A DNA stretch of 25,463 nt from a virus: IMG/VR virus record IMGVR_UViG_3300021197_000007, positions 1 to 25,463 of that record, one strand, 5' to 3'. Made by a program: the position numbers and the translations under genes. How positions within the stretch are numbered: the first letter of the stretch is position 1; every line of letters begins with the position of its first letter. Positions 6-20,663 of the stretch are shown here, piece after piece. The notes under the pieces were generated by a model, which was not told the DNA's origin, made no database searches, and saw only the letters and a list, made by a program, of their open reading frames with translations.

Positions 6-386
6 TTACTCAGGTTTGTCAACTGTGACCTTTCTATAATAAACCACAACATCTTTTAATTCTGTTATATATCTCTTTAATTCTTGCATGTTATAAGCCA
101 TAACTTCGTAATCAGGAATTGTCATAGCAAGAAAAACTAACTCACCTTCTTGTTCTTCTATCATTGCTAACTGGTCTTCCCAGTTTTCAGGAGTTATAAC
201 AATCCATCTTGGTTCTTGGAGATGAATTTCTCTAGGCATTACAGGTTGAACAATCTTCCTGTCTAATGGTTTTGATGATACCTCTATTTGTTTAGTTGGT
301 ATCAGGCTGCAACTGCAAACCATCATCAAGGTCATCAACTGTACTGCTGATTTTCTCAATGTCTTGCATAATATGTTTTGTTCCAT
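6..386 (-). CDS. Outer-membrane spanin-like lipoprotein (Rz1-type)
   Basis: A 126-residue protein starting at ATG 386, preceded by a good ribosome site (AAGGAAG about 8 bases upstream). It begins with a short basic stretch and a hydrophobic segment ending in V-C-S-C at residues 23-26. Cys26 is the likely lipidated residue, though the lipobox is imperfect. A proline-containing stretch (residues 30-60) follows, then a mixed C-terminal domain. Its start lies inside the 3' end of the preceding membrane/coiled-coil gene, with a 95-base out-of-frame overlap. That is the classic arrangement of phage inner and outer spanin genes, whose products bridge the two membranes and disrupt the outer membrane in the last step of lysis. 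The call rests on architecture and context, not on a recognised domain. The protein is longer than lambda Rz1, so a separate-function lipoprotein remains possible. Confidence 0.6.
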   Translation of the reverse strand: MEQNILCKTLRKSAVQLMTLMMVCSCSLIPTKQIEVSSKPLDRKIVQPVMPREIHLQEPRWIVITPENWEDQLAMIEEQEGELVFLAMTIPDYEVMAYNMQELKRYITELKDVVVYYRKVTVDKPE

Positions 387-687
387 TGTTTATCTTCCTT
401 TCCATTTCTATAGGGTCAGCTAATATTTTAGCTGCTAGTTCATAGTTCTGTATAAATTGTGTATATCTATTTAACTCTCTTTGTGCTGCCTGTGATTTAA
501 TAGTTAAGTCATTCATTTGTTGTGTTTGTAACTCAAAATCAGCTTGTATAGATTTTATTGCTTCTTCTTGTGTTGCTATAGCACCCTCTAATGCAAGATT
601 GTTAGCTGCTAATGTTTTATTTTCATTAAATAAATAGTAAGCAGTAAACCCTAAAAATAATATTATGCCTATTAATACTTGTTGCAT
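292..687 (-). CDS. Inner-membrane spanin-like protein (Rz-type)
   Basis: A 131-residue protein with one N-terminal membrane segment (about residues 4-20) and a long, Gln- and Ala-rich predicted coiled coil (about 25-115). This is the usual build of an inner-membrane spanin: the membrane anchor sits in the cytoplasmic membrane and the coiled coil spans the periplasm. The ATG at 687 overlaps the stop of the upstream 74-residue gene as TAATG, so translation is probably coupled. The lipoprotein gene starts inside its 3' end. The position at the end of the visible late cluster fits lysis. No endolysin or peptidoglycan-binding motif is present. The role is inferred from topology and the overlap. 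Confidence 0.65.
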   Translation of the reverse strand: MQQVLIGIILFLGFTAYYLFNENKTLAANNLALEGAIATQEEAIKSIQADFELQTQQMNDLTIKSQAAQRELNRYTQFIQNYELAAKILADPIEMERKINNGTKHIMQDIEKISSTVDDLDDGLQLQPDTN

Positions 688-911
688 TATGCGTCCTCTA
701 TTATGTAATTTAGACCACTAGCACTTCGGTATTCAATAACATTATTATCTTCATCTTTAAATTTAAGGTGTTTTTCTTTTTTTGTTATAATTTTTTTAGA
801 AATGTAAGTTTTATCATCTGCATCACCATATTCTTTATTAAATGACACAGTGATTTTATAGCGTGTTTGAAATAAACTTATAAGCCATTTGAGTATTGTT
901 CTAAACTCCAT
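687..911 (-). CDS. Small hypothetical protein, possibly membrane-associated
   Basis: A 74-residue, Lys-rich protein whose N-terminus (about residues 6-16) is amphipathic or hydrophobic and whose remainder is polar and probably beta-rich. The ATG at 911 has an AGGTG ribosome site about 5 bases upstream, lying inside the end of the cyclase gene; the two genes overlap by 34 bases. Its stop overlaps the start of the inner spanin gene as TAATG, placing it in the same transcript as the cyclase and the lysis genes. I do not recognise the family. It could be a small lysis accessory or a host-takeover protein, but nothing in the sequence decides this. Confidence 0.6.
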   Translation of the reverse strand: MEFRTILKWLISLFQTRYKITVSFNKEYGDADDKTYISKKIITKKEKHLKFKDEDNNVIEYRSASGLNYIIEDA

Positions 912-2671
912 GTATACACCTGTAACTTTTCGCTTTTACCTTTAGCAGCAATTGGGTTTAATGGTACTAAATCAAATTCTATCGCATTTTCGGTACTTTG
1001 ACCAATAAGGATATCAACACCAGCACTCTTAGTACCTGATTCAAGTCTAGCAGCAATATTAACTGCATCACCTATTGCTGTGTAATCAAATCTATTTTTA
1101 CTACCCATATTACCTATGACTGCATATCCAGTATTAATACCTATTCCGATTGCAACTGGTTCTATTCCTTTATTAACAAGTACATAATTAAGTTCAATCA
1201 TATTTTTTTGAATATCCATAGCACAAGCTAATGCTTTTTCTTCGTGATTTTCTAAATCAAGAGGTGCGTTAAATATTGCCATCATGGCATCACCAATATA
1301 TTTATCTACCATGCCACCATGCTTTTGAACTGCTTTTTGTTGAGCTGTAAGAGCTTGATTCATTATGTAAGTCACCTGTTCAGGTTCTAATGTTTCTGAC
1401 AAAGCGGTAAATCCACGAACATCTGTGAATAAAAATGTTGCGTATCTTTTTTCTCCACCAAGTTTTAAAAGTTTAGGGTTATCTTGTAATTGCTTAACCT
1501 GTCTTGGGTCTAAATAATGCTCAAATTGTTTTTTAATCTGAAGTCTAAGTTTATATTGTTCTCTGAATCTTAAATAAAAAGCTATTGCACCTGTTATAAA
1601 CTGAGATATCAAAGTCCATGTCACATCAATCAATATACCCCTGTGGATAAGTGCATATCCTGTATAAGCTGTTAATAACATTATTGTTAAAGCTGATACC
1701 AAACCCCAAGTTATGCCTAAAGCGTTCAATACAAGCCATATAAGGCTCACAGATAATAAAAATATAAGTATTTCTAAAGCTATTGCCCAATCAGGTATAT
1801 AAGGGCTATCTTGTATTAAGATTGATTCAGCAAGTGCTGCTTGTATCTTATGTGGTTCCATAATTTTACCATTAGGTACACCTATTTGTGGCATGACACC
1901 ATTAGCAGTCACACCAACAAACACAAACTTACCTGCCACATTCATTTCTTGTAAATCTGTTTGTGGTGTATCAACCCAACTAATCCACTTACGACCAAGA
2001 CTGTCTGTTTTTACTGGTGGTATTCCTCTAATTGATATTTCTTCTATACCATTATCATTAGTTTTTATAATGTAAGTTTTTACACCAAACAATGCTTTGT
2101 ATATTTGTGTGCCAAATGCAGGAATCCAGTTGTTATCAGGTGTGCTTACAAGTAATGGGATTCTGCGGACTAAAAGGTCAACTTCGGTGGGAGCAATGGC
2201 TAGACCCTGCAATGTATTATCTTTTAGAGTGTTCAGGTTTTCCTTAACTCCCATAGAAACTATAGCACGAACATCATTACCTTTGACAACAGTTCCTTCA
2301 GGTTTTGGATAATTTCCACTGTTATCTTCAAACATAGCTAAAACAGATGGTACATATCCAAGTGTTGTTGCAAAGACTTCATCACCACCCATTCTATCCG
2401 CTTGTGGAAAAGATATAACCCAACCGACTCCAATAGCACCTTCATTAATTAAATCTACTTGTATTTGTGCAAGTGTTCTTCTTGGAAAGGGATAACCACC
2501 TTCTCTTTCTACATCTTCTTCTGTTATGTTTAGAATTACAAAATTACCTGATGGTTCTTGCTGCTTTACTAATGCATCAAAAGTTCTTAGTTTTAATATT
2601 TCAGTTGGTGTGCTTTGAAATATAAGTGGAAGTGATAATAGTATTACTATCGGAAACAGAAATCTTTTCAT
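878..2671 (-). CDS. CHASE2-domain class III adenylate cyclase, membrane-bound
   Basis: A 597-residue protein from ATG 2671. An in-frame TTG at 2701 would add ten residues but lies inside a terminator hairpin, so I prefer the ATG. An N-terminal hydrophobic anchor (about 1-19) precedes a CHASE2-like extracytoplasmic sensor region (about 20-290). Three membrane spans follow (about 295-315, 323-342, 346-367), then a short linker and a class III cyclase domain (about 408-590). Catalytic residues look complete: metal-binding Asp417 (FTDVRGF) and Asp461 (GDAMMA), adenine-selecting Lys457 and Thr531, and transition-state Asn538 and Arg542 (VNIAARLE). The Lys/Thr pair points to ATP and therefore cAMP as product. 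In bacteria CHASE2 cyclases often lie beside FecR-domain proteins, and one is found here at 3213-4331. No clear ribosome site is visible. A strong terminator lies just upstream, so expression may need read-through or a separate promoter. Confidence 0.92.
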   Translation of the reverse strand: MKRFLFPIVILLSLPLIFQSTPTEILKLRTFDALVKQQEPSGNFVILNITEEDVEREGGYPFPRRTLAQIQVDLINEGAIGVGWVISFPQADRMGGDEVFATTLGYVPSVLAMFEDNSGNYPKPEGTVVKGNDVRAIVSMGVKENLNTLKDNTLQGLAIAPTEVDLLVRRIPLLVSTPDNNWIPAFGTQIYKALFGVKTYIIKTNDNGIEEISIRGIPPVKTDSLGRKWISWVDTPQTDLQEMNVAGKFVFVGVTANGVMPQIGVPNGKIMEPHKIQAALAESILIQDSPYIPDWAIALEILIFLLSVSLIWLVLNALGITWGLVSALTIMLLTAYTGYALIHRGILIDVTWTLISQFITGAIAFYLRFREQYKLRLQIKKQFEHYLDPRQVKQLQDNPKLLKLGGEKRYATFLFTDVRGFTALSETLEPEQVTYIMNQALTAQQKAVQKHGGMVDKYIGDAMMAIFNAPLDLENHEEKALACAMDIQKNMIELNYVLVNKGIEPVAIGIGINTGYAVIGNMGSKNRFDYTAIGDAVNIAARLESGTKSAGVDILIGQSTENAIEFDLVPLNPIAAKGKSEKLQVYTWSLEQYSNGL

Positions 2672-2687
2672 CACAAAATAATAGCAT

Positions 2688-2713
2688 AAAAAAAGGGTCA
2701 ATTAAGACCCTTT
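2688..2713 (-). terminator. Rho-independent terminator downstream of the 122-residue gene
   Basis: On the minus strand a perfect 8-bp stem (AAAGGGTC with GACCCTTT, arms 2706-2713 and 2692-2699, loop TTAATT) runs directly into a U-tract (A run at 2688-2694 on the plus strand). Two more inverted repeats lie just upstream in the same gap: arms of 7 bases around one base at 2711-2725, and arms of 6 bases with a 4-base loop at 2723-2738. The hairpin ends a few bases before the cyclase start codon at 2671. Confidence 0.85.
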
Positions 2714-2741
2714 GTTTTAAACAAAGATGCAAATCTTTACA

Positions 2742-3110
2742 TTAAACCTTTTCAGTCACAGGATTTTCAAAAGTAGCCATAAGGCTTCCATCTTTAGAAT
2801 AAATTTTATGATTACCATTGTACAAGAACCCATTAGAATCAAAGTTATCTATCACTTCTGTATCACCCCAATTTTCGTAACTTTTATTACCATTACGACC
2901 ATTACCCATTGGAACTAAAAAGTAAGTGACATCATCATGAACTAAAACATCACCTTCTGACGTGCTTCTGTAACCTTCATCAGACCATGCTTCGTCTATA
3001 TTTTGTGTTTTTCTATATGCATATTGAAAAGACTCTGTATCAATAGTAGCTACGAGTTTGTAAGGTTTTTCGTTATTTGCGAATTCTGTTGCTTGGTATA
3101 CTTTTATCAT
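2742..3110 (-). CDS. Hypothetical soluble protein with RSTSxGDV motif (independently transcribed)
   Basis: A 122-residue, acidic, soluble protein without signal peptide or membrane segment. The start at ATG 3110 has an AAGGA ribosome site about 8 bases upstream. A conserved-looking core reads TQNID (35-39), Trp42, then RSTSEGDV (48-55). The combination TQNID...W...RSTSxGDV resembles a motif I associate with YodL-like and other small phage or plasmid proteins of unknown function; this is recollection, not a search. The gene is flanked by a predicted sigma70 promoter (3156-3184) and a strong terminator (2688-2713), so it looks like a self-contained moron-type unit inserted between FecR and the cyclase. 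It is not CsgE: it has no signal peptide and none of the CsgE sequence pattern. Function unknown. Confidence 0.7.
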   Translation of the reverse strand: MIKVYQATEFANNEKPYKLVATIDTESFQYAYRKTQNIDEAWSDEGYRSTSEGDVLVHDDVTYFLVPMGNGRNGNKSYENWGDTEVIDNFDSNGFLYNGNHKIYSKDGSLMATFENPVTEKV

Positions 3111-3155
3111 TTTATTTTTCCTTGCTTTTTAAAGCGTTTTTCATTTTATACAACT

Positions 3156-3184
3156 ATTATCGTTTATTTTGGTGCAGATGTAAA
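3156..3184 (-). promoter_or_regulatory. Predicted sigma70 promoter for the 122-residue gene
   Basis: On the minus strand a -35 box TTTACA (3179-3184, five of six consensus bases) and a -10 box GATAAT (3156-3161, five of six) are separated by exactly 17 bases. Transcription would start near 3149, giving a leader of about 39 bases with an AAGGA ribosome site before ATG 3110. An AT-only dyad (3198-3212, arms AATAATT and AATTATT) directly follows the FecR stop codon. It may be a weak terminator or just AT-rich sequence. The promoter is predicted by eye and an AT-rich genome raises the chance of false matches. Confidence 0.55.
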
Positions 3185-3212
3185 CCCATTTTGGAATAAT
3201 AATTAAATTATT

Positions 3213-4331
3213 TTATTCACTCTGTGTAATGGTAATTACTGAATCTCCACCACCATTAATCTTAACAACATTAGAGACACCATCTTGTATGATAATAAGA
3301 GTATAGGCATCATTGCCATCTAAGTCTAACCTGACTGAATCATTTACACTTCTTCTAACGCTTATTACATCACCAGCTACTAAAGTTGTTATTTGCGTAT
3401 CTTTATCTTGACCAACTCTAGTACCTTTAATATCTATGCCACTCGTATCAGCCAACACATCTTCATCTTTACTAATAGCAAGAGAGTCTAATACATTAAG
3501 CAAATCTTCAAGAAAGTTTGTATCAAGGTAATTAATATCTAATTCTGTAAACTCTAACTCATCTTCTCCAAGAAAGTCCTCATCAAGATAATCTATGTCT
3601 AAGTCATTGAAATCTAAAATGTTTTCTTTTGAGTTTTGTGATACTTCTTCTGTAATTGATATTTCTTTTTCAGGTGGTGTGACAATTAACATATTATCAA
3701 TAATGTCTAATGTTAAATCTAAGATAACTGGTTCACTAGGTTTAGATTCAAACACACTGACTGTAGTTGCTTGATAAGGTTTATTTAATAAAACAGTACC
3801 CATAGCAGTCACTACTTCTATTTCTCCACTAGACAATCCTAGAGCATCAGGTAAAAGTATTATTAATGACCTACCTAACTCATCAACTGTAGCTGTAAAG
3901 TCTGTTCCACGAATAGCAATATTAGCAGTAGGTGTTTTTAGCTTTATGTTTTGCTTATCTATTCTATTTAGATTACCTGTAATAAACCTTGCTGTTCCTA
4001 ATCCAAATGTCAGAGCCATCTTAGATTTAGATGGGTCAGGGTCATAGATGTATTCATCTATTAATAGTTGTGAGTGTTCTGTAAGTTTTACAATTGAATC
4101 ATCAAGAAATGTAATAGCCATTCTGCCATTAGATGTAATAGCTTCATCATTGCTTTGTATAGCAAATTCTAAGGTAGCATCTAGTGGCTCGTCTCTTACT
4201 ATTTGTGCTGAACCATTTAGTTCAGAAATGTCTCCAATATCAACAGCTTGTGCTTGTACCTTGGTCGTTTTGGATAACACACACAGTAGAAGTAGCATTA
4301 CCACCAATTGATATGATTTTAAGCCAGTCAT
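3213..4331 (-). CDS. Secreted FecR-domain protein with acidic linker and curlin-like C-terminus
   Basis: A 372-residue exported protein. A signal peptide (1-29) ends at AQA, giving a mature start near Val30. A FecR domain (about 60-190) follows, with the typical ITSNGRMAITFLDDS and TANIAIRGTDF (135-145) motifs. Next is a very acidic linker (about 236-285) with two related copies of a D-I-D/N-Y-L-D-x-x-F-L unit. The C-terminal 30 residues alternate beta residues in a pattern (IIIQDG..N..KI.GGGDS..TITQ) like a single curlin repeat. FecR-type domains bind periodic surface or cell-wall polymers or act in envelope signalling, and many lie beside CHASE2 cyclases, as here. The ATG at 4331 lies 92 bases inside the curlin-like gene, so the whole signal peptide is encoded in the overlap. 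No good ribosome site precedes it, so translation may be coupled. It could be an amyloid nucleator, tether or sensor; that is inference. Confidence 0.85.
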   Translation of the reverse strand: MTGLKSYQLVVMLLLLCVLSKTTKVQAQAVDIGDISELNGSAQIVRDEPLDATLEFAIQSNDEAITSNGRMAITFLDDSIVKLTEHSQLLIDEYIYDPDPSKSKMALTFGLGTARFITGNLNRIDKQNIKLKTPTANIAIRGTDFTATVDELGRSLIILLPDALGLSSGEIEVVTAMGTVLLNKPYQATTVSVFESKPSEPVILDLTLDIIDNMLIVTPPEKEISITEEVSQNSKENILDFNDLDIDYLDEDFLGEDELEFTELDINYLDTNFLEDLLNVLDSLAISKDEDVLADTSGIDIKGTRVGQDKDTQITTLVAGDVISVRRSVNDSVRLDLDGNDAYTLIIIQDGVSNVVKINGGGDSVITITQSE

Positions 4332-4971
4332 TGTCTTGTGTACTCAGTTGTTGAATATTAAATGTTCTTTGTCCACCTGTATGGTCTAAGTAAAAATATC
4401 CACCTGCTGAATCAGTAACACCTGTACCTGTATAATTAACTGTATTATCACTACCATCTATATCCATGTAGTTTGTAGCACCATCAATGTTGATAGTAGA
4501 AGTAACTGTATTATTAGAACCTTGTATAATCCAGTCTAAATCTAAAGTATCTGCTAAAGCAGTTGTTCCTTGATTAAGGGTAAATGTATTACCAGTACCT
4601 GTAACTTGTACATTTTGATTAGATGAATCAGCACCATGAGTGTTTGATGGGTCTACTTGGATTGTAAAAGTATTTGTATTACCAGTAAATTCATAGAATC
4701 CTGTGAAACTATCTGCCCATATATCACCTAGAAACTTATTAGTGTTTCCAATCATATTAATATCAATGGTCATTGTAGTTCCGTCAATATCAAAAGCATT
4801 TAAATTACCTGCAGTTGAATTAAGTCCACCAATGATGTTTGATATGCCTAGTTGTTCTATATCAAGATTTAAAGTTGTGCCACTTTGGTCTAAATATATT
4901 TCGTTGTCAGCCGCGAATGTCGGCAATGCAATCAGCATCACACTCAGGCTCATTAATTTCAGTTTCTTCAT
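4240..4971 (-). CDS. Curlin-like secreted amyloid-type protein
   Basis: A 243-residue protein with a clear Sec signal peptide (1-20, cleavage after TFA). The mature part is acidic, with few Lys and Arg and many Gly, Asn, Thr and Asp residues. It shows irregular curlin-type repeats: IYLDQSG..LNLDIEQLG..N at 25-45, then recurring G-x-x-N-x-(V/F/I)-x-(I/L) units such as GNTNKF (75-80), GNTNTF (97-102), GTGNTF (125-130), GSNNTV (151-156) and GSDNTV (173-178). This is the expected build of a substrate of the CsgG pore. The regular spacing of E. coli CsgA is only partly kept. Two cysteines (231 and 243) close the C-terminus, unlike CsgA. The ATG at 4971 lies 65 bases inside the CsgG gene and the 3' end overlaps FecR, so translation of the cluster is probably coupled. 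Whether it forms fibres is not shown by sequence. Confidence 0.8.
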   Translation of the reverse strand: MKKLKLMSLSVMLIALPTFAADNEIYLDQSGTTLNLDIEQLGISNIIGGLNSTAGNLNAFDIDGTTMTIDINMIGNTNKFLGDIWADSFTGFYEFTGNTNTFTIQVDPSNTHGADSSNQNVQVTGTGNTFTLNQGTTALADTLDLDWIIQGSNNTVTSTINIDGATNYMDIDGSDNTVNYTGTGVTDSAGGYFYLDHTGGQRTFNIQQLSTQDNDWLKIISIGGNATSTVCVIQNDQGTSTSC

Positions 4972-5776
4972 GTTTCCAAAAACTCCTATCGTATCCGATA
5001 TTTATTAGTTCTAAGACTGCACCTTCAATAGCTTTCATCAGAGCAATCGTTGTTGACTCGTTGCGTGAATTTCCTAATTCCACCTCAACAAGTTCAGTAC
5101 CCATTTCTATGAATCTAAAAACATCTTCTGACTTACCATAACTAAATATGGTTTTTTGGCTTAACACTTCTATAAGTATCTCACCTGTTGCAACTGATAC
5201 CATGCGAAGACTAACTGTTATATTGTCTTCTCTGTATTGCATACTTGTACCTATTCCTAGATATCTAGCACCAACTCCACCAGTTGACAAGTTACTATCA
5301 TAACTTATAACTGCACCTTCTAACAAGACACCTGCAAATAGCAGTGGTGGTACATTGTTGCTTTCACCTTCTTTTGCAAATTGTTCTCTAGCTGACCTTA
5401 TCAATTGTCTTTCTTTTGTTAGGTTGTCTAAACCTACTCTTTCAACAACTCTAAAGAACTCACCATTACTAGAATGTTTTAATGCTCTAATTAATAAAGT
5501 GTAGGGTGCTTGGGTGACAGCAGTAGAAAATAAAGCAAACTCACTATTACTTTTTCTTTGTCCTGTTTGGTCTGTAAATGCTGAAGGATAGACAGCTACT
5601 ATAGGTTGAACTTCAGGTTTTTTTACATTAGCTAGTTCTTTAGAATGAAGTTCATCAATTCTAACTACATCATGTTCTTTAAATCTTTGTTCGTATGTAT
5701 CTTCATACTGGTCAAATATAGAACAACTAGAAAGTAAAAGAACCGATAGGAATTGTAATTTCTGTGACTGTGCCAT
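4907..5776 (-). CDS. csgG: CsgG-like outer-membrane curli secretion pore lipoprotein
   Basis: A 289-residue protein, close to the E. coli CsgG length of 277. A lipoprotein signal ends in L-S-S-C with Cys18 as the lipidated residue. Across most of its length it matches CsgG: the TDQTGQ and FSTAVTQ region (68-89), VVERVGLDNLTKERQLIRSARE (110-131), the strongly conserved GGVGARYLGIG (166-176), and a C-terminal helix with MKAIEGAV and INIGYDR (247-263). CsgG forms a nonameric outer-membrane channel that exports curli subunits without ATP. Phe83 appears to match the constriction residue Phe56 of E. coli, while the neighbouring Asn55 is Leu here. It starts at ATG 5776, 50 bases inside the CsgF-like gene, and overlaps the curlin-like gene by 65 bases. 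The C-terminal tail (270-289) is acidic with two cysteines and looks lineage-specific. Confidence 0.95.
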   Translation of the reverse strand: MAQSQKLQFLSVLLLSSCSIFDQYEDTYEQRFKEHDVVRIDELHSKELANVKKPEVQPIVAVYPSAFTDQTGQRKSNSEFALFSTAVTQAPYTLLIRALKHSSNGEFFRVVERVGLDNLTKERQLIRSAREQFAKEGESNNVPPLLFAGVLLEGAVISYDSNLSTGGVGARYLGIGTSMQYREDNITVSLRMVSVATGEILIEVLSQKTIFSYGKSEDVFRFIEMGTELVEVELGNSRNESTTIALMKAIEGAVLELINIGYDRSFWKHEETEINEPECDADCIADIRG

Positions 5777-6260
5777 CTGCTTCTGTTATTTTAAGTGTTA
5801 AAAAAGAACCATCAGATGAGTATTCTATTGTATTACCCTCTAATGATATAGTGCCACTGTCTTGTGGTGTTTCACCAAATAAATTAGCGATAAGCTGTCT
5901 GCTTAATTCTGCATATACCCTGCTTTCAAAATTACGAATAAATCTCTGCACTGTTGAGTTCTCTTTATCTCTTTCTGCTTCTTCAATAGCGGCTTTGATT
6001 TCATCTTTAATTACTTTTCTACGATTAAACTCTTGGTTCTCAATAGTCAGATAATGACTAGATGTATTTACACCATTAAAAGATGGTGATTTAAACTTAT
6101 GTACTATTTGGTCTGCTTTTATATTTTGTACAAATATACCTATAAATAAAGCAACTCCTATAGCCATTACAAGCCATAGAATTTTATCTTTTTCAGCTTG
6201 CTCTTTTCTACGCTTAAGTTCAGCGTTGCTTGGTCTGCCTCGTTTCTTTTTTTCTACCAT
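5727..6260 (-). CDS. csgF: CsgF-like curli assembly factor with N-terminal membrane anchor and AT-hook-like motif
   Basis: A 177-residue protein. The first 26 residues are strongly basic and include KKRGRPS (5-11), the core of an AT-hook. One membrane segment (27-46) follows, and then a CsgF-type domain (about 50-177) with the F-x-S-P-S-F-x-G-x-N start (56-65), which in E. coli CsgF inserts into the CsgG channel, and a C-terminal beta region (136-177). In curli systems CsgF helps the pore and anchors the nucleator at the cell surface. The start at ATG 6260 is supported by AGAGGTG about 7 bases upstream. E. coli CsgF has an ordinary cleavable signal peptide. Here the N-terminus may be an uncleaved signal anchor, or be cut after IKA at residue 49. 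Adjacent to CsgG with a 50-base overlap, which strengthens the call. Confidence 0.85.
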   Translation of the reverse strand: MVEKKKRGRPSNAELKRRKEQAEKDKILWLVMAIGVALFIGIFVQNIKADQIVHKFKSPSFNGVNTSSHYLTIENQEFNRRKVIKDEIKAAIEEAERDKENSTVQRFIRNFESRVYAELSRQLIANLFGETPQDSGTISLEGNTIEYSSDGSFLTLKITEADGTVTEITIPIGSFTF

Positions 6261-6501
6261 TTTTATTCACCTCTTGTTCTTTTAGTTCTAAAACAGTATT
6301 GACTTTCTGTTGTAAGCGTATCATATCTTGGTCTAACAGTCTAAGTTGGTCAGTAAGTCTAATAATAGTTGTTTTCATTTCTGAAACAGCAGGGTCTATA
6401 GTATTAGTGATTGTTTGCCATACGAAGTAAACAAAGTAACCTAGACCAACTACCATAATAGTAGTGAAACCAAACTTTTCTACTAAAACAATAATGTCCA
6501 T
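6220..6501 (-). CDS. Small single-span membrane protein with coiled coil (copy 2)
   Basis: A 93-residue protein with one membrane segment (about 11-31, containing GYFVYFVW), a coiled-coil stretch (about 38-75, with LDQDMIRLQQKV) and a very basic C-terminal tail. The ATG at 6501 overlaps the previous stop codon as TAATG. The plan, size and motifs (GYF in the membrane span, then N/D-x-DMIR in the coil) match the gene directly upstream, so the two look like diverged duplicates. It overlaps the CsgF-like gene by 41 bases. Possible roles include holin or antiholin, inner-membrane accessory of the curli cassette, or lysis regulation; the sequence does not decide. Unrecognised family. Confidence 0.65.
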   Translation of the reverse strand: MDIIVLVEKFGFTTIMVVGLGYFVYFVWQTITNTIDPAVSEMKTTIIRLTDQLRLLDQDMIRLQQKVNTVLELKEQEVNKNGRKKETRQTKQR

Positions 6502-6794
6502 TAATCCCTTCTAGCATCTATCTTCCCATCTTCTACAAAGTTTTCTGCTCTCGCTATTCTATCTAGGTCAGGAGATAAATTTAATGCACTAGATACACTT
6601 GTATCAATGCGAATCATATCGTTATTCATTATTGATGCTCTTGTTATAAGCATTTTGGTTATGCCTTGTACAGTTTTTATATCACTTACAAGGTTTCCCA
6701 TAAGCTGTTTCATAATTAAAAATATAAAGTAACCCATGATAAGACCACCTGCTATAGGCAAACCTACTTTATCTATAAGATTAAAAACTTCCAT
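6501..6794 (-). CDS. Small single-span membrane protein (copy 1)
   Basis: A 97-residue protein with a short N-terminus, one membrane segment (about 10-31, containing GYFIFLIM) and a soluble, partly helical C-terminal part with NNDMIRID (57-64). The start overlaps the stop of the holin-like gene as TAATG. It resembles the next gene in topology and in the GYF and DMIR motifs, which suggests tandem duplication and divergence. Such small one-span proteins are common beside phage lysis genes, but I see no diagnostic holin motif. Function not assigned. Confidence 0.65.
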   Translation of the reverse strand: MEVFNLIDKVGLPIAGGLIMGYFIFLIMKQLMGNLVSDIKTVQGITKMLITRASIMNNDMIRIDTSVSSALNLSPDLDRIARAENFVEDGKIDARRD

Positions 6795-7192
6795 TATTGC
6801 GTATTATCTTCACCTTTAAAGCCTTTGCTTTGACCTGACTTACCTGAGTAAACACCAAAAACAACACCCATAGCACCAACAACAACAGATACTAAAGCTG
6901 ATTGTTCTAAATTAGGTTCAGGTAAATTCATAAACCATATAACAGATTCATACATAAGATATATGTATACAACTACAAAGATTCTTGGAAATATACGCCA
7001 TGAGTCTACTGCTCTAGCTAAATGTATAACTTTTTGCCAAGGGTTCACATTTGTTGCATCTTCTAGTTCTCTTATTTTATCTTTTAGTTCACTAATTTCT
7101 TGTATCATAGCCATGAACTTATTTAAATCCATTTCTACTTCATTTCTATCCATGTCGCCACCAAAACGACCACTACCCATATTGTTATCCAT
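6794..7192 (-). CDS. Putative holin-like membrane protein
   Basis: A 132-residue protein. The N-terminal half (about 20-55) is a charged coiled coil. An amphipathic linker is followed by two membrane segments (about 69-90, IFPRIFVVVYIYLMYESVIWF, and 98-117, SALVSVVVGAMGVVFGVYSG), and the tail is short and polar. The start at ATG 7192 is supported by AAGGAG about 8 bases upstream, one of the few strong ribosome sites in the tail-to-lysis junction. Two closely spaced hydrophobic spans and the position after the tail genes fit a holin, which would permeabilise the inner membrane to trigger lysis. The coiled-coil N-terminus is not typical of small holins, so another phage membrane role is possible. 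Confidence 0.55.
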   Translation of the reverse strand: MDNNMGSGRFGGDMDRNEVEMDLNKFMAMIQEISELKDKIRELEDATNVNPWQKVIHLARAVDSWRIFPRIFVVVYIYLMYESVIWFMNLPEPNLEQSALVSVVVGAMGVVFGVYSGKSGQSKGFKGEDNTQ

Positions 7193-7206: not shown

Positions 7207-7584
7207 TTAAGTTGGTTCTGTGGGAAAAGTTACATCATCTGCTGAAGATGCACTAGAGTTGTTTGCAGGTAAGTCTCTTAAAGATTGTCTATAAGTTACC
7301 CATTCTGCTTTTTTTGAATCTGTTAAAGGCGAATCAAGGGTTTGTGTCCAGTCAGATTCTGTGAGCAATGTGTTTCTTGCAATTCTTAATCCTATCCAAA
7401 AATCTACTGTTTGTGCTACTGCTTCACCACTAATTATTTTGTAATCACCAACATCATATATACCCTCTATAACAGACTGACCTGACTCTAAAGGCACTTC
7501 TGAAAGTTGCACATTTGTTGCACCACATTCTAATATTTCTCCAGTTGAAGTTTTATATTTGGTATATTGTATTATTGTGTTCAT
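7207..7584 (-). CDS. Tail fibre/tail assembly chaperone-type protein (Phage_tail_APC-like)
   Basis: A 125-residue soluble protein. The C-terminal half carries the recognisable pattern of phage tail-fibre assembly/chaperone proteins: RNTLLTESDWTQ (70-81), then DSPLTDSKKAEWVTYRQSLRDLP (84-106). These small proteins usually follow the gene of the fibre or tip protein they help to fold. Here the ATG at 7584 overlaps the stop of the 1178-residue tip gene as TAATG, consistent with that role. The N-terminal part (1-60) is less typical and beta-rich. Family call from motif memory; the partner is inferred from adjacency. Confidence 0.7.
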   Translation of the reverse strand: MNTIIQYTKYKTSTGEILECGATNVQLSEVPLESGQSVIEGIYDVGDYKIISGEAVAQTVDFWIGLRIARNTLLTESDWTQTLDSPLTDSKKAEWVTYRQSLRDLPANNSSASSADDVTFPTEPT

Positions 7585-10500
7585 TATTGTGTGTTATCTA
7601 TAAATACATAAAGTGATTGATAAGTGCTTCTTAATTTTGTTATCCATCTTACTCTCCAAAAAACCTTGTTTGCATTTGTGCCTGAAGTTGCTAATCCTGA
7701 TATTGTGCCATTATAAGCAAAGATATATGTTCTAAATGTACCTGCTGCAAAAGTAACATTTTGTATTCCACCTGCAGCTTGTACATAATTTGAACCACCA
7801 TCTACGCTGTATTCAAGAACACCATTAGTGCAATCTCCATAGACACCAGTCCATATTGCTTCATAAGAAGCACCATCTCTTACATTATCAACATTCATAC
7901 TAAGATATGTTCCTGTTGATTGTGTTTGAGTTGTAAAATTGGTAGAACCTCTTTGAAACGCACTAGCAAAACTTGATAAAGGTACTGCTGAACCTGTATG
8001 TGAAATTATATCTGCACTCACATCTGCAAAGTGTTTTACATTTAAAGTATCAACATTAATTTGTGTACCTGTAATTGTTCCTGATGCTATTTCTGATGCT
8101 GTAATAGTATTTGAAGCTATTGCATCTGCTGTCACTGCATTTGAAATAATTTGGTCTGCACCAATAGAATCTGCTGCCATTTGTGTAGCTGTAATAGTTC
8201 CACCAACAATATTAGCTGCAACAATCGCATTAGCTGCTACTTTGTCTGCTGTCACTGCATCTGCATTAATCTTAGCTGCTGTTACTGCATTAGCTTGAAT
8301 ATTAGATGCAACTATACTATCGGCTGCTAACTTTCCTGCAACTATAGCTCCAGCAGTAATTTTGGCACTGGTTATTGCGTTAGCTACAATTTTATCTGAT
8401 GTAATTGCATCTGCGTTTATCTTTACAGCAGTGATTGCATTAGTGGCAATTGTGTCAGCAGTTATTGCTCCTGCATTTATCTTTGCAGTTGTAATAGCAC
8501 CAGCATTAATTTTTGCTGTTGTTATAGCATTCGCAATTATCTTGTCTGCAGTTACAGCATTTGCATTTATTTCATTAGCTGTGATTGCATTAGCAGCAAT
8601 CTTTGCTGTAGATATGGCATCATCTGATATTTTTGTTGTGGTTATTGCACTAGCTGCTACAAGGTCTGCTGTAATTGCATCATTGGCAATTTTTGCAGTT
8701 GAAATGGCATCGGCTGCTATTTGTGCAGTGTTTACAGCATTATCTGCAAGTTTGGCATTAGTGACAGCATCAACTCCCAATTTAGCTTCAACGATTGCTC
8801 CTGCTGCTATAACATCACCTTGAATGGCATCTACTGCTATTTTTGCATTAGTTACTGCTTCTGCTGCTATTTTTACGCTTGTTATAGCACCATCTACTAT
8901 TTCACCTGCACTTACATTAGTAAAATTACCTGATGCACTACCTACAAAAGCAGAATGCACATCTGACTGATTTACTGACCTAACCCAAAAGTAATATGTA
9001 GTACCTGCTGTCAATCCATCCTGTGTTCCAAATAATGTACTAGTCACTTTGCCATTTAATCCATAGATGGTTTCTACTAGATATGTGTCATCTGTTGGTG
9101 TTGTGTTGGATGTTCTTCTATATATCTTAGTGGCTTTTAAATCAGCACTTGTTGAATTTGTCCAAGATACAAGAATGTTAAATGCTTGTCCTGTTGATGC
9201 ACTAAGACTTGTTGGAACTGCTGGTGCATCTGTTGGTGCTGATATTGTTATATTGACTACACTGGTATAAGCACTAGCAACACCATTCACATCTATATGT
9301 CTTGCTTTCACATTATATGTTTTACCAACTACAACATTAGGGAGAAGGGCTACAGCAACACCTTTTCCTACAGTGAAGTCTGAGGTAAATGCACCATCTG
9401 TACTTAGCTTATACGCCACCTCTGTAAGTGTGACCTTATCACTAGAGTTGTTAGTCCATGATGCTTTGATATCTACTTTAGTTGTGACACCATCTTTATT
9501 TGTTTGTTGAGCAAGAGAAAGGTTGCTTGGTGCTGTGACTGAATAATCTCCAGTAGTAACATCGCTACCTTCTGATTGACCAGTTGTATAATCATTAGTA
9601 GCAAAGTCAAATACACTTGATGCTATTTCTTTAAGCTCTAACCTAGTTGCCATGACTGGCACTTCACCACTTTGTAAAACTTCCATATTTGTTGATATAA
9701 CTTCAAATACTTTTTGACTGTAGTTTAATCTTTCATTTGTTACATAAACCCAATCATTAGGTTGCAACCTCATATATTGTAGTGTCACCAAACAAGCTAA
9801 AGATGTTGTTTGTCTTTGACTTTTTAAGGCTATTCTGCCTAATCTTTGTGCCATAGTATCTGTTACTGTAAATGGTAGTTGTGTTTCCATTTGTTTAACA
9901 TAATTTGCTGTTGACTCACCTGTAGGTGTATCAGCATTCAGCATAGTTGTATCTCTATACACTTCTGCATCAGCAGCTACAAAGTTTTGTGTAGAGTCTA
10001 CATATACAGGCTTAACACTGTTAAATAAATTACCTGAATTAGGATTAGTTTGAATTTGTACTTGTTCTAATAAATCATCATCAGTAATAGTCAAAGAAGG
10101 TGTTTGTGAAGCACCTGCAAACACATTAAATTTACCATTAACATAAGACATTTTTCCTGCCATAGAGCTAAGTAATGATTCAATTACTCCATTACCATTT
10201 GCACTAAAAGTAGTAAACCCATTTGCTGTGTATCTTTTTTCTGTAGTAGAGCCATCAGCAAGAGTTACATTCTGCTCACAAGTATTGGCTGCTGAAGAAA
10301 AACCACCTGCGTTTGTAGTGTCATTGATTTCTGTGGTTGTTGCTTTTATACCATATTCAGTATTTGTTAAATAATCTCTAATATGTAAAGCAGGATTATT
10401 TGTCCATGCTGTAGCATTACTTCTAGGGTCATAGCACTTCTTACCTTTTACAAGAAATGAAGTTGGTGGAATACCACCACCAAATGCTTCTGCATCAAAT

Positions 10501-11120
10501 ACCATCTGTATATAAACATAAGCAACACCAAGAAACTTATCAGACGTACCCATAGAACCTAGTTGTGCGTTCATAAATCCATCTACAGCAGTTTGACTAC
10601 CATCTTGAACTATATATCGCATCAATCTGCCACTACCAAAATTATTTTCATTGTCAGAATTGGTGTAATCAGAATTAGTGACTGTATAAACAGTTGAACC
10701 ATTTATTGTGCTTGTGGTTGTTGATAGGTCATTATCATTTAATCTTATTTTTGTAAGTTCTTCTATCTCATGTCCTGCTATAGCTATCACCATGTGTAAA
10801 AGATAATTGTCTGTGCCTGATGTTTCCATGTGTACAATTGTTCCACCCACTCTAGCTTGACCATATATTATCTGTCTTGGTGCAATGGCTTCTCTGTTAG
10901 CAAATTTTGTACCAAAATTACCTGCTGATGCTTCTATACCTTTAGAGTTCATTTTACCTATAAGACCACCTAACAAAGTGGTACCAAAGGTCATAACAGC
11001 CATAGTTGTTGCAGTGCCTATAGCAAAAGTACCAAAAGCACCAATAGCTGCACCACCAGTTACTGCAACTACAAATACAACTAATGCTGCAATTACAGCT
11101 GCTTTTATTTGTTTAGCCAT
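7584..11120 (-). CDS. Tail tip / host-specificity protein (lambda J / GTA megatron-like)
   Basis: A 1178-residue protein at the position of lambda J and of the GTA g15 tip protein. The N-terminus has a long hydrophobic, Gly/Ala-rich segment (about 7-55), which in this family may act during DNA passage. Next come the J-type hub region (about 60-520, including IIYGQARVGG and a KCYDPR motif), two fibronectin type III-like domains (about 527-630 and 630-738), 28 tandem decapeptide repeats (744-1023) and a C-terminal beta domain of about 150 residues that probably forms the distal, receptor-binding part. It overlaps the upstream peptidase-like gene by 8 bases. It likely forms the trimeric tip that contacts the host. 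The receptor cannot be read from the sequence. Confidence 0.85.
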   Translation of the reverse strand: MAKQIKAAVIAALVVFVVAVTGGAAIGAFGTFAIGTATTMAVMTFGTTLLGGLIGKMNSKGIEASAGNFGTKFANREAIAPRQIIYGQARVGGTIVHMETSGTDNYLLHMVIAIAGHEIEELTKIRLNDNDLSTTTSTINGSTVYTVTNSDYTNSDNENNFGSGRLMRYIVQDGSQTAVDGFMNAQLGSMGTSDKFLGVAYVYIQMVFDAEAFGGGIPPTSFLVKGKKCYDPRSNATAWTNNPALHIRDYLTNTEYGIKATTTEINDTTNAGGFSSAANTCEQNVTLADGSTTEKRYTANGFTTFSANGNGVIESLLSSMAGKMSYVNGKFNVFAGASQTPSLTITDDDLLEQVQIQTNPNSGNLFNSVKPVYVDSTQNFVAADAEVYRDTTMLNADTPTGESTANYVKQMETQLPFTVTDTMAQRLGRIALKSQRQTTSLACLVTLQYMRLQPNDWVYVTNERLNYSQKVFEVISTNMEVLQSGEVPVMATRLELKEIASSVFDFATNDYTTGQSEGSDVTTGDYSVTAPSNLSLAQQTNKDGVTTKVDIKASWTNNSSDKVTLTEVAYKLSTDGAFTSDFTVGKGVAVALLPNVVVGKTYNVKARHIDVNGVASAYTSVVNITISAPTDAPAVPTSLSASTGQAFNILVSWTNSTSADLKATKIYRRTSNTTPTDDTYLVETIYGLNGKVTSTLFGTQDGLTAGTTYYFWVRSVNQSDVHSAFVGSASGNFTNVSAGEIVDGAITSVKIAAEAVTNAKIAVDAIQGDVIAAGAIVEAKLGVDAVTNAKLADNAVNTAQIAADAISTAKIANDAITADLVAASAITTTKISDDAISTAKIAANAITANEINANAVTADKIIANAITTAKINAGAITTAKINAGAITADTIATNAITAVKINADAITSDKIVANAITSAKITAGAIVAGKLAADSIVASNIQANAVTAAKINADAVTADKVAANAIVAANIVGGTITATQMAADSIGADQIISNAVTADAIASNTITASEIASGTITGTQINVDTLNVKHFADVSADIISHTGSAVPLSSFASAFQRGSTNFTTQTQSTGTYLSMNVDNVRDGASYEAIWTGVYGDCTNGVLEYSVDGGSNYVQAAGGIQNVTFAAGTFRTYIFAYNGTISGLATSGTNANKVFWRVRWITKLRSTYQSLYVFIDNTQ
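8052..8891 (-). repeat. 28 tandem 30-base repeats encoding decapeptides in the tip protein
   Basis: The encoded units follow x-A-I/V-T-x-x-K/D-I-x-A, for example DAISTAKIAN and NAITTAKINA. The array is exactly 840 bases with no frame slip. DNA copies are diverged, so this is an old protein repeat under selection for its periodicity. The same decapeptide occurs in shorter runs near the N-termini of the fibre proteins at 20664-25463. Confidence 0.9.
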
Positions 11121-13036: not shown

Positions 13037-15043
13037 TTAGCCACCTTGTAACATTCTCCTATAATTACCACCACGCATTGATGCTTCTGCTACAGCACCT
13101 TTAGTCACATCTGCTATTTGTGGCATCATTTTCATAACTTCTGCTCTAACAGTTGGTACAACACCTGTAGCAAAGTTTATTGATTGATTTATTATTGTAG
13201 TTCCGCCACCACCCACAGCATTTTTACTATTCATGTTATTCATAATATTTCCATTACTATGTGGCACAAATATTTCAGGACCTCTTTCACCAACTATCAT
13301 AGGTTGACCCCCATAAGCTGAACCACCACCTGCCGATTTTTTAAATGTAGGCAAAGCATCAGATGTACCTGTTAAACCAAATACTGAATTAAGAATTTCA
13401 TTTACTACTGCCATCTGTAAAAATATTGAAATTATTTGACTAACTATGTTTTTAGCAAAATCTTTAAAACTATCTAGAGCATTACGACCTTCTAGTAATG
13501 CATTAACGAAATTATTAGTGAAAGAAAGTGAAATACTCTGTATTGCAGGTGCTAATGCTTCACCAAATGTTTGTGCTACATCACTAGTAGCATTTTGCAT
13601 ATCTTGTAATACTGTTACTAGTCTTGGAGCAGACTCAATTCCAATTTCATCTAATAATAATTTATATTTTTCAAAAATTTCATTAGCACTTTCTTGTCCA
13701 AATTTAAGTAATTCAGTGTTTCCTAATATACCTTCTTGATGTTTTTGAACTAGACCCATGATACTAGCCATTTTACCTTGTAGTAAAAGCGATTTTACTT
13801 GTTCATCATTAAATTGTTTTTCAGTTTGCGTGGATTGGTTAAATGCATCTCTTTGTTTTAATAATTCATCAGTCAAATTTGCAACAACTGATGATGCTGC
13901 ATCACTAGTTATATCTAAATCAGTTAATAAACCTATTACTGTTTTTAAAGCACTTTCTGCCATTCCTACACTAGGAGCATTAATAAATGAAGCTAATGCA
14001 TTACCTATAATTCCTCTATCACCTTCTGATATTGATGTCATTTCTTTAATTTTATTGTTTATTGCATCAATATTAGCAATAGCAGCTCTACCTCTTTCAG
14101 ATTGCATTTGGTCAAACGACATATCTGACTTAAATTTTGGTGCTTCTAAAGTAATTCCTAAACCTGAACCTCTCATCTCTGCCATAGCTACTGCTAAATT
14201 ATTAATAATACTTGTAGTTTGGTTTACCATAGATTTTAAACCAACTCCCAAAGGACCTAAAAATATTTCATTACCTAAATTTTTAAACGCTATCTGCATA
14301 TTAGATACGCTGGTGGAAAGGTTATCCATTTTGCTAACCATTGCACCGCCAAACTGTCTTTCTAAAACATTTGTTAATGATTCAACAATTATTTTTGCTC
14401 CATCTGCTGTTTGACCAAAATCAGCTAACTCTAATCTTGATAGACCTAATTCATCTTTTAAACCTTTAAATACATCAATACCTCTGTCAGCTAACATATT
14501 TAATTCTTGCAGTCCTAATGCACCTGCTTCTGCTCTTTGCACTACTCTTATTAATGCTTCAAAAGCTCCTCTTTGGTCAACTGCAACTGATGCTGTATCA
14601 GCAAATACTTGCATCATTCTTGAAGTTGGTTCAATTCCAACTGAACCAAGTGATATAAAGGCTTTTGTGACTGTATCTATTTGGAATGGAGTTGTTTGTG
14701 CAAAATCTAATATTCTTTTAAATTGTTTATCACCTGCTTCTACAGAACCAAAAACTGTGTCAAGTGAATCTTTTAAATCTTCAAATTCCATACCTGCTCT
14801 AGCTGCAAAAGCACCAAGTTTACCTACACCTACAACAACAGCACCAATTGCAGCAGGACCTGCAAGTTTTTTTAGACTACCTGCTAAAGCACCTGATGCA
14901 CCACCCATAGCACCAAATGCAGCACCACCTGCAGCTCCAGTAGTTTTAATCTTGCCTTGTATATCTTTGAGTTCTTTTTTAAGCTGACGAGTGTCAGCCT
15001 TAATCTCAATAATTAATTGGTCTACTGTCTTTCCACTAGCCAT
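13037..15043 (-). CDS. Tape measure protein
   Basis: A 668-residue protein. The N-terminus has a charged helical stretch and a Gly/Ala-rich hydrophobic region (33-80), followed by the typical tape-measure core (about 85-260: EDLKDSLDTVFGS, FAQTTPFQ, ALGLQELNMLADRGI). A long helical region and a hydrophobic segment near 535-560 come next. The C-terminus has the MIVGERGPEIFVP motif (582-594) found in lambda-type tape measures. The protein fills the tail tube, sets its length and is released on infection. By the usual rule of about 0.15 nm per residue the tail would be about 100 nm, which fits a siphovirus. The start at ATG 15043 overlaps the preceding gene by 8 bases. Confidence 0.93.
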   Translation of the reverse strand: MASGKTVDQLIIEIKADTRQLKKELKDIQGKIKTTGAAGGAAFGAMGGASGALAGSLKKLAGPAAIGAVVVGVGKLGAFAARAGMEFEDLKDSLDTVFGSVEAGDKQFKRILDFAQTTPFQIDTVTKAFISLGSVGIEPTSRMMQVFADTASVAVDQRGAFEALIRVVQRAEAGALGLQELNMLADRGIDVFKGLKDELGLSRLELADFGQTADGAKIIVESLTNVLERQFGGAMVSKMDNLSTSVSNMQIAFKNLGNEIFLGPLGVGLKSMVNQTTSIINNLAVAMAEMRGSGLGITLEAPKFKSDMSFDQMQSERGRAAIANIDAINNKIKEMTSISEGDRGIIGNALASFINAPSVGMAESALKTVIGLLTDLDITSDAASSVVANLTDELLKQRDAFNQSTQTEKQFNDEQVKSLLLQGKMASIMGLVQKHQEGILGNTELLKFGQESANEIFEKYKLLLDEIGIESAPRLVTVLQDMQNATSDVAQTFGEALAPAIQSISLSFTNNFVNALLEGRNALDSFKDFAKNIVSQIISIFLQMAVVNEILNSVFGLTGTSDALPTFKKSAGGGSAYGGQPMIVGERGPEIFVPHSNGNIMNNMNSKNAVGGGGTTIINQSINFATGVVPTVRAEVMKMMPQIADVTKGAVAEASMRGGNYRRMLQGG

Positions 15044-18583: not shown

Positions 18584-20662
18584 CTATCCTTCTAATGTTT
18601 CTATTCTAGTTTTTAAATCGTCTATTATTGATTGTTGTTCTTGTATAGCTTTTACCAAGTAAGGTGTAAGTTTTCCATAATCTACACCCCAAGGTTCTTC
18701 AGTAACATCCTCTCCACCTTCTTGTACTACATTTGGTATTACCTCGTTTAATTCTTGTGCAATAACACCAACTTCATGATGACCATTATTTTTCCAATCA
18801 AATTCTCTAATTTGTATATCGTTAATTACTTCCAGTTGAGAAGCAGCATCTACAATATTTTCTTTCATTCTTCTATCAGAAGATGTGTTGTAAGCTACAG
18901 TTGTTCCACTTGCTGCTGATACAGAACCCATAACACTATTACTATCTCTAAATCTTATAAATTGACCCCCAGTAGCATCTGTATCACCGCTAAATGAAAG
19001 TAACTGAATTAGATTTGAAGAAGCAACAGAACCATCAGTGTCAAAAAATGCTACTATTCCACCATGCCCTGCTGTTTCACCACCAGCAGAAACCTGTAAT
19101 TTACCATAAGTAAGCGCACTAGAAGTTTGGTTTATCAACAAGTTGCCTGAAGAATCAATACGCATTCTTTCTAATGAGTTTGTATAAAATGCAGCATGTG
19201 CAGATGTGCCTGTTTCTGTAGCTGCACCTATAGCTAGACTACCACCACCTATTCTATAAATAAAAGGACTGTCTTGATTGGTTGGAAAAGCACCTGATTT
19301 AAACAATACAGCACCTGAAGAATCAATACGCATTCTTTCTGTTGCATTAGTAAAAAATCTTTGTCCTATTCCAGTAGTACCATAAAAATCATAATAACCT
19401 GAACCACCACCTACTATTGATGATTCTCCAATAGTAAATTTAGCTGCACTACTTTCATCAAATCTTAAATATGGTGTATCAGCATCATTATCTAAAATTA
19501 AATTTGCATTAGTACCATTAACAGAAGATTTAATTGTGCCTGAAGAATCAATACGCATGGCTTCTGATGCGTTAGTTGCAAATCTCATATAATTTGCTGT
19601 ATGCTCGTATTGAATAAATCCTCTATACGCATCATCTCCTGAAGTTCCATCTGCAAAATGAATATTACCTAAATGTGATGTTCCTGATGCTATGGTAATA
19701 CCTGTATGACCAGTCGTAGCAACAACCAAATTATCTGCATTTGCTTGATAACTTGAAGGACTATCAGTCCCCAACCCAAGATTTCCTGATGAATCTATTC
19801 TCATGCGTTCTGTATCAGAAGTTTCAAATACTATATTACCTGCTTCAACAGCTTCAATATTTAAGTTACCAGTACCTCTATGTCTTAAATCAGTATTGCC
19901 ATTAGCACCACTATTTCTTAAAATTCTAAAACCAAAATCTGTATATGTTGTATCACCAGTTAAATCAACTATAGCGTTTGCATTAGAAGCACCGCCTGTA
20001 CCTATTTCTGCATTATCAGCAACGACTGTACCTGTTACGTCTATGCCTGTTGAGGTTGTGGCTATTTTGGTTGCATCATCATATCTAAGTTGTACAGCAC
20101 CCCCATCTACTGCCAATATATATGTTTTATTTCCAGCACCATTATTTAATTCAATATTTGTGCCTTCAAGTTTTAAATTGCCAGTTCCAGTTTCTTTAAT
20201 ATGAGATGCAGAACCTGAATGATAAATTTCTAAATCTGAACCTGCTCCAAAGATAGCTTTACCATTATCAGCAAATGTAGCGTTGCCTGTGACACTAACC
20301 CCTGCACTGCTTGTAGCTAGTTTTACAGCATTATCGTGATAAAGACTTACTGCACCATCAGCTGCACATATTATGCTTTCTTCGTTAAGTTTTGCCTGTA
20401 TATGAACTGCACCATTGGTATCACCTAAATAGATATTACCTGTTGAGTTAGAGATATAAGAGTTAGAACCATCATGATAGATTTCTAAATCACCACCTGT
20501 TCCTATCTTAATCTTGTCGTTGTCACCCATAACTAGATGGGTAGCTAAAGTGACTTCACCTGTGACACCTAAAGTTCCTGAGATTGCAATATTAGTATCT
20601 AGCTTTGCACTGGTAATTGCTCCATCTACTATTAACTCTGTTGGTACTAATGTATATGCCAT
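18584..20662 (-). CDS. Tail fibre with C-terminal S74 chaperone domain (fibre 3)
   Basis: A 692-residue protein. A short N-terminus with one decapeptide-like unit (IVDGAITSAKL, 11-21) is followed by repeated beta-structured units of the types LEIYHDGSNSYI, T-G-N-L-x-L-E and ERMRIDSSG (at least four copies of the last), which are common in marine phage fibres. The last 99 residues form an S74-type intramolecular chaperone: SSDRRMKENI with the Ser595/Lys600 dyad, VGVIAQELNEVIP, VDYGKLTPYLVKAIQEQ, and a terminal coiled coil. This domain assists trimer folding and then cleaves itself off. The start at ATG 20662 is one base from the upstream stop. Fibres of this type usually bind the host surface; the receptor is unknown. 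Confidence 0.88.
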   Translation of the reverse strand: MAYTLVPTELIVDGAITSAKLDTNIAISGTLGVTGEVTLATHLVMGDNDKIKIGTGGDLEIYHDGSNSYISNSTGNIYLGDTNGAVHIQAKLNEESIICAADGAVSLYHDNAVKLATSSAGVSVTGNATFADNGKAIFGAGSDLEIYHSGSASHIKETGTGNLKLEGTNIELNNGAGNKTYILAVDGGAVQLRYDDATKIATTSTGIDVTGTVVADNAEIGTGGASNANAIVDLTGDTTYTDFGFRILRNSGANGNTDLRHRGTGNLNIEAVEAGNIVFETSDTERMRIDSSGNLGLGTDSPSSYQANADNLVVATTGHTGITIASGTSHLGNIHFADGTSGDDAYRGFIQYEHTANYMRFATNASEAMRIDSSGTIKSSVNGTNANLILDNDADTPYLRFDESSAAKFTIGESSIVGGGSGYYDFYGTTGIGQRFFTNATERMRIDSSGAVLFKSGAFPTNQDSPFIYRIGGGSLAIGAATETGTSAHAAFYTNSLERMRIDSSGNLLINQTSSALTYGKLQVSAGGETAGHGGIVAFFDTDGSVASSNLIQLLSFSGDTDATGGQFIRFRDSNSVMGSVSAASGTTVAYNTSSDRRMKENIVDAASQLEVINDIQIREFDWKNNGHHEVGVIAQELNEVIPNVVQEGGEDVTEEPWGVDYGKLTPYLVKAIQEQQSIIDDLKTRIETLEG

Positions 20663-20663
20663 A

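Follow-up and report, generated by a model that had tools for sequence, protein, structure and literature searches.

What would a marine phage do with a periplasmic sensor and an enzyme that makes a second messenger? The question is raised by IMG/VR record IMGVR_UViG_3300021197_000007, from a marine bacterial virus, of which positions 1 to 25,463 are analysed here (the whole stretch of 25,463 nucleotides, hereafter "the window"). A preliminary description of this DNA, drawn from its letters without database searches, had picked out a FecR gene and, one gene away, the gene for a class III adenylate cyclase with a CHASE2 region, and took the pair to imply a cyclic adenosine monophosphate (cAMP) signal during infection. 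Both genes lie where that description placed them, on the minus strand, with a single open reading frame (ORF, 2742-3110) in between. Three genes immediately upstream (CsgF, CsgG and a curlin-like gene) had escaped it, as had the Rz/Rz1 spanin genes immediately downstream. On balance, FecR and the CHASE2 cyclase appear to be the signalling end of a phage-borne curli (type VIII secretion) cassette, which would couple the state of export or of the envelope to cAMP. This reading is built on gene order, domain content, intact catalytic residues, purifying selection, the fold of FecR and the finding that CsgG, FecR and cyclase almost always occur together, all of them taken from sequence or from a structural model.

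A curli cassette with a probable signalling end

The cassette is encoded entirely on the minus strand and lies between the tail genes and the cell-bursting (spanin) genes. CsgF, CsgG and the curlin-like gene, overlapping head to tail, come first, then FecR, a gene for 122 amino acids and the cyclase:

5727..6260, minus strand: CsgF (Pfam CsgF, 3e-16)
4907..5776, minus strand: CsgG, the outer-membrane curli secretion channel (Pfam CsgG, 1.1e-48)
4240..4971, minus strand: curlin-like secreted repeat protein (homology to family members that match Curlin_rpt)
3213..4331, minus strand: periplasmic FecR-domain protein (Pfam FecR, 3e-9; model with a mean predicted local distance difference test score, pLDDT, of 77; Z 15.6 to 6ovk)
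2742..3110, minus strand: protein of 122 amino acids between FecR and cyclase (no Pfam or PHROG match)
878..2671, minus strand: predicted CHASE2 transmembrane class III adenylate cyclase (Pfam CHASE2, 6.5e-22; Guanylate_cyc, 6.1e-21; catalytic sextet conserved)

The CsgF, CsgG, FecR, CHASE2 and cyclase domains all exceed the Pfam cut-offs (for CHASE2 and Guanylate_cyc, the curated ones). The curlin assignment is made through the family: 14 of 21 scanned members match Pfam Curlin_rpt (best 5.2e-8), and the window copy itself has no match.

Is this arrangement peculiar to one contig? The viral loci compared were those that a query with cyclase, FecR or tape measure had retrieved, and hence their counts measure linkage and not frequency in the ocean. 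Across them the order CsgF-CsgG-curlin-FecR-cyclase is kept: FecR precedes the cyclase in 161 of 166 loci, the cyclase follows FecR in 172 of the 173 with enough sequence, and CsgG precedes every FecR tested (169/169). The pair noticed in the preliminary description is thus real, but it does not stand alone, and a free-standing FecR/cyclase unit was rejected on that last count. Ocean viruses carry this cassette in abundance, and tailed phages of widely different kinds inherit it as one block, a pattern which implies that it is under strong selection.

The CHASE2 cyclase

The cyclase frame extends back to a TTG start (878-2701); since relatives begin at an ATG 10 codons further in, the gene probably spans 878-2671. 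Counted from this ATG, which is the numbering behind the Asp417 and Asp461 correctly named in the preliminary description, the catalytic sextet is made up of D417, K457, D461, T531, N538 and R542 (from the TTG, D427, K467, D471, T541, N548 and R552). All six class III residues are present, as had been claimed, and they are conserved across 83 homologues: both metal-binding aspartates, the lysine and the arginine are invariant, the threonine of the purine pair is Thr or Ser in 82, and the transition-state asparagine is kept in 82, phage Melnitz being the sole exception. The CHASE2 region that had been described is likewise found; of the three membrane spans claimed with it, two are clear after CHASE2 and the third falls under the hydropathy cut-off, one other hydrophobic stretch being N-terminal.

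A look for substitutions in relatives, as the preliminary description had proposed, gives a divided answer. The sextet reads D-K-D-(T/S)-N-R in 142 of 142 window-like copies and in 40 of 41 copies resembling that of phage HTVC008M, where the remaining copy is truncated; it is intact, then, in all 182 assessable copies of these two groups. In the Melnitz-like copies (L003 and loci L352-L431) it has changed to D-K-D-D-S-R in 79 of 80, that is, Asn to Ser and Thr to Asp across the lineage, with the metal aspartates, the lysine and the arginine retained. Lys/Asp occurs normally as the purine pair of other class III enzymes. The Asn-to-Ser change touches the transition-state pair, and the contrast with the intact lineages offers a clean natural comparison.

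Against six relatives of the window, the ratio of nonsynonymous to synonymous substitution rates (dN/dS) is about 0.13-0.22 for the cyclase, with the catalytic domain under purifying selection. As predictions, the catalytic competence of the window enzyme is supported and its nature as a regulated cyclase is well supported.

The FecR protein

FecR, for which the six relatives of the window give a dN/dS of about 0.07-0.20, was modelled from 48 diverse phage sequences with a mean pLDDT of 77, compared with 31.7 for an earlier model made from 24 similar ones. The model suggests a predicted signal peptide, a FecR/PupR-like domain, an acidic linker, a helix and an all-beta C-terminal domain. In it, a hydrophobic helix at residues 6-21 is read as the signal peptide and the beta domain would start at residue 33; the linker is poorly predicted and the all-beta domain (307-370) confidently so. 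Residues 59-217 of the model match the periplasmic signalling domain of PupR (PDB 6ovk; Z 15.6, root-mean-square deviation 2.6 over 137 residues). A second match, of residues 29-122 to a cell-surface anchoring domain (5ix9; Z 6.9, root-mean-square deviation 2.5 over 72 residues), may just reflect a common arrangement.

The phage protein would resemble the FecR/PupR sigma regulators in its periplasmic fold, as the match itself indicates, but differ from them in having an acidic linker and an additional all-beta C-terminal domain, and in lacking their anti-sigma part: no cytoplasmic N-terminal anti-sigma domain is seen in the model, and PF04773 is the sole family common to the 48 relatives.

The last strands of FecR carry a conserved Q...IxIxQ pattern like that of a curlin repeat, and Gln370 is invariant in the 48 diverse sequences. 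Could this C-terminus be a curlin repeat? It scores 9.2 against a curlin profile (shuffles 3.5 +/- 2.3, shuffle maximum 10.9), and with a hidden Markov model the median is 2.4 (shuffled 95% point 1.1, shuffled maximum 8.1). With scores modestly beyond those of shuffles and no Pfam Curlin_rpt match in the C-terminus, the identification was rejected and remains a lead; structure comparison of this part returned weak immunoglobulin-like rows alone (Z at most 3.8).

Relation to known systems

A type VIII secretion (curli) module in which FecR and adenylate cyclase are named has been described as common to podo- and myovirus pelagiphages (PMC9599517), and its csgF and csgG were first reported in PMC7029224. 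The HTVC023P-type podoviruses and pelagimyophages of these studies have CsgF, CsgG, curlin, FecR and cyclase in the order of the window. The novelty lies in the carrier of this already known cassette, a phage whose tail is lambda-like (tape measure, distal tail protein, J); no report of the cassette in a siphovirus was found in the literature searched, which is not proof of absence. HTVC008M, isolated on SAR11 strain HTCC1062, and Melnitz, isolated on OM43, both show CsgF-CsgG-curlin-FecR-second curlin-cyclase. The window cyclase is 32.5% identical to that of HTVC008M and 29.5% to that of Melnitz, and the window FecR 34.7% and 35.1%, respectively. Melnitz has the same gene set as the window, although csgA and csgB were stated to be missing from it (PMC9004378).

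The differences are nonetheless several. Where the pelagiphage module and the Melnitz-like phages have two curlins, the window has one, and the unrelated 122-residue gene, present in only four of the loci compared, occupies the spot of the second. A histidine kinase was reported as always present before CsgF (PMC9599517), whereas the corresponding position in the window (6220-7192) holds small membrane proteins, and no Pfam kinase domain was found at E 0.5 in the genes before CsgF. The window cassette, unlike the pelagiphage module, adjoins spanins. As a separate observation, the second curlin of HTVC008M (L002, 10638-11963) has a long N-terminal extension, probably a PA14 domain; one member of the curlin alignment gives a PA14 match.

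The sensor pair itself has a bacterial precedent, as the preliminary description had stated. Around 40 alphaproteobacterial CHASE2 domains, nearly all of them in cyclases, 16-kilobase segments were compared with 20 control segments from the same genomes: a FecR-domain gene lies within about 8 kilobases of CHASE2 in 19 of the 40 and in none of the 20 controls. FecR-CHASE2-cyclase clusters are also known in Campylobacterota (PMC9239204). These bacterial clusters share the neighbour pair with the phage but not the exporter, CsgG being found in 0 of the 40 alphaproteobacterial segments, and their FecR partners range from short ORFs to ones of more than 1000 residues. In the Burkholderia BiofilmReg operon, linked to biofilm, a periplasmic FecR-domain protein likewise stands beside a CHASE2 membrane sensor (PMC5192318), but there the output is a CHASE2-kinase, a histidine kinase with a response regulator, rather than a cyclase. 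The phage cassette joins a bacterial-type FecR-CHASE2 sensor pair to a curli exporter.

How the cassette might work

The mechanism that we propose would begin late in infection, when the cell would make the CsgG/CsgF pore and export the curlin-like protein. Periplasmic FecR would sense or gate this export, or respond to the state of the envelope, and would contact the cyclase at its periplasmic CHASE2 domain. From CHASE2 the signal would travel along the membrane helices and the conserved linker until it reaches the class III catalytic domain, whereupon cAMP would be made in the infected cell. In a bolder version, to which we give little credence, the curlin-strand-like end of FecR would read the export of curli subunits, and cAMP would be a messenger imposed by the phage on hosts that themselves possess neither cyclase nor CRP, timing lysis through a receptor not yet recognised.

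Several points weigh against the proposal. No cAMP receptor was found among 30 phage records: cNMP-binding (cyclic nucleoside monophosphate-binding) domains occur in 0 of 22 window-like records (the window itself being a fragment) and in 0 of 8 myovirus records, including the complete HTVC008M and Melnitz. FecR can occur without the cyclase, as the siphovirus contig L261 (9691-11347), whose cassette lacks only the cyclase and has Rz directly after FecR, and L341, where no cyclase was found after FecR, indicate. Catalysis may also be dispensable in some carriers, since the Melnitz-like phages keep the cassette despite their Asn-to-Ser change. Finally, FecR is only weakly similar to a curlin repeat at its C-terminus.

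Who, then, would listen to the cAMP? The preliminary description, which proposed a search for CRP-type targets in likely hosts and in phage promoters, points to one reading: the phage cyclase raises host cAMP and a host CRP-family regulator redirects transcription. The intact class III residues agree with this, and in Sinorhizobium the CHASE2-cyclase CyaD1 does work with the CRP-family regulator Clr (PMC5498481). Some tail proteins of the window are nearest to those of Roseobacter phages, whose hosts may have CRP. However, HTVC008M infects SAR11, and the cNMP-binding domain is absent from 136 of 147 Pelagibacterales genomes. In the other 11, most matches belong to large open frames, in the majority of cases of 870 codons; the single one inspected (L093, 919-3264) joins a pair of cNMP-binding domains to an acyltransferase, a fusion that is a candidate receptor for cAMP in a minority of Pelagibacterales. 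A class III cyclase occurs in one of the 147 genomes, and that one is a binned phage contig. With no CRP in the 30 phage records and SAR11-type hosts mostly devoid of it, any target would be an unrecognised host protein. CRP as the target is thus not supported, and the classic route is unlikely if the host is SAR11-like; a CRP-bearing host is possible, and over all hosts we hold such rewiring to be unlikely. The puzzle is that an intact cyclase is delivered to hosts most of which have neither class III cyclase nor cAMP-binding protein.

The position of the cassette, between tail genes and Rz/Rz1, nuclease and endolysin, with three small membrane proteins of holin-like appearance directly before it, invites another explanation, in which CsgG/CsgF and these small proteins perturb the envelope while FecR and the cyclase report its status and set the time of lysis. 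A role of CsgGF in lysis has indeed been proposed for the Methylophilales phage Melnitz (PMC9004378). Yet HTVC008M and Melnitz have no annotated lysis gene next to the cassette, the small proteins give no holin match and no cAMP effector is known among lysis genes, and a checkpoint of this kind seems quite improbable to us. It is more doubtful still that the cyclase is carried as a passenger or works non-catalytically, with selection on its membrane and CHASE2 parts: this would suit the Melnitz-like active sites and the two loci that seem to be without the enzyme, but not the 182 intact sextets or the purifying selection on the catalytic domain. FecR, lastly, has been suggested to be an iron-responsive regulator that controls the cassette (PMC9599517), acting as in ferric citrate signalling. 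The FecR domain and the match of the model to the FecR/PupR periplasmic fold are in keeping with this, but a predicted signal peptide at the start and no anti-sigma part make an iron-sigma role unlikely, and no Sigma70_r2 protein was found in the 22 records tested, most of which are fragments, a short match occurring only in the T4-like HTVC008M and Melnitz. The model thus speaks against the iron-regulator label for FecR, which appears unlikely, and we find this explanation of the cassette barely credible.

The carrier phage and the neighbouring genes

The preliminary description had placed the pair in a late or lytic region of a phage, and this is borne out by tail tip and fibre genes on one side and spanins on the other. 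The genes around the cassette are:

6..386, minus strand: Rz1-like outer-membrane spanin (phrog_812, 6.8e-12)
292..687, minus strand: Rz-like inner-membrane spanin (phrog_739, 1.1e-10)
687..911, minus strand: small ORF between cyclase and Rz, found in about a quarter of loci
6220..6501, minus strand: small membrane protein with one span and a coiled coil, holin-like by appearance (phrog_18771; sequence reading)
6501..6794, minus strand: small membrane protein with one span and a coiled coil (phrog_18771; sequence reading)
6794..7192, minus strand: small membrane protein (phrog_10198)
7584..11120, minus strand: lambda J-like tail tip protein, before the cassette (tblastn to J-like tail tip and tail proteins of phages)
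13037..15043, minus strand: tail tape measure protein (Pfam TMP_3, 1.2e-12)

The last of these marks a long-tailed, siphovirus-like carrier, and other contigs too show it linked to the cassette, with which it recurs in 4 of 25 other viral records tested; together with a distal tail protein, the J-like tip and fibres it forms the tail module on one flank. On the opposite flank, related contigs have a nuclease after the spanins and then, where they reach far enough, a phage lysozyme, and it is from these neighbours that the cassette can be said to sit at the lysis module in the lineage of the window. Among the contigs fetched with the tape measure protein, all those running past J into the site carry the cassette, with no exception seen; a comparison with empty sites yielded nothing, the cassette-free contigs all stopping short of the site. 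The cassette accordingly seems to belong to the core of this siphovirus lineage.

A scan of bacterial genomes for a chromosome with the full cassette returned no more than two relatives, each from a metagenome bin, and neither was kept as a bacterial locus. L084 (Candidatus Pelagibacter MED605 bin) is clearly a phage contig, with terminase, portal and lysozyme. It is podovirus-like: terminase and portal come next past the lysis side, the terminase is nearest to those of HTVC023P-type podoviruses, and the portal protein is present in seven other records. L085 (Flavobacteriaceae ARS19 bin) is probably phage by its cassette gene order; the reading frame of its cyclase has a break between 5598 and 5650.

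Two minor features of the tail genes may be added. The tip and fibre genes (7584-11120 and 18584-25320) contain long runs of a short repeat of the AVTxxKIAxxAIT type, and several of the fibres have ends that look like intramolecular chaperones.

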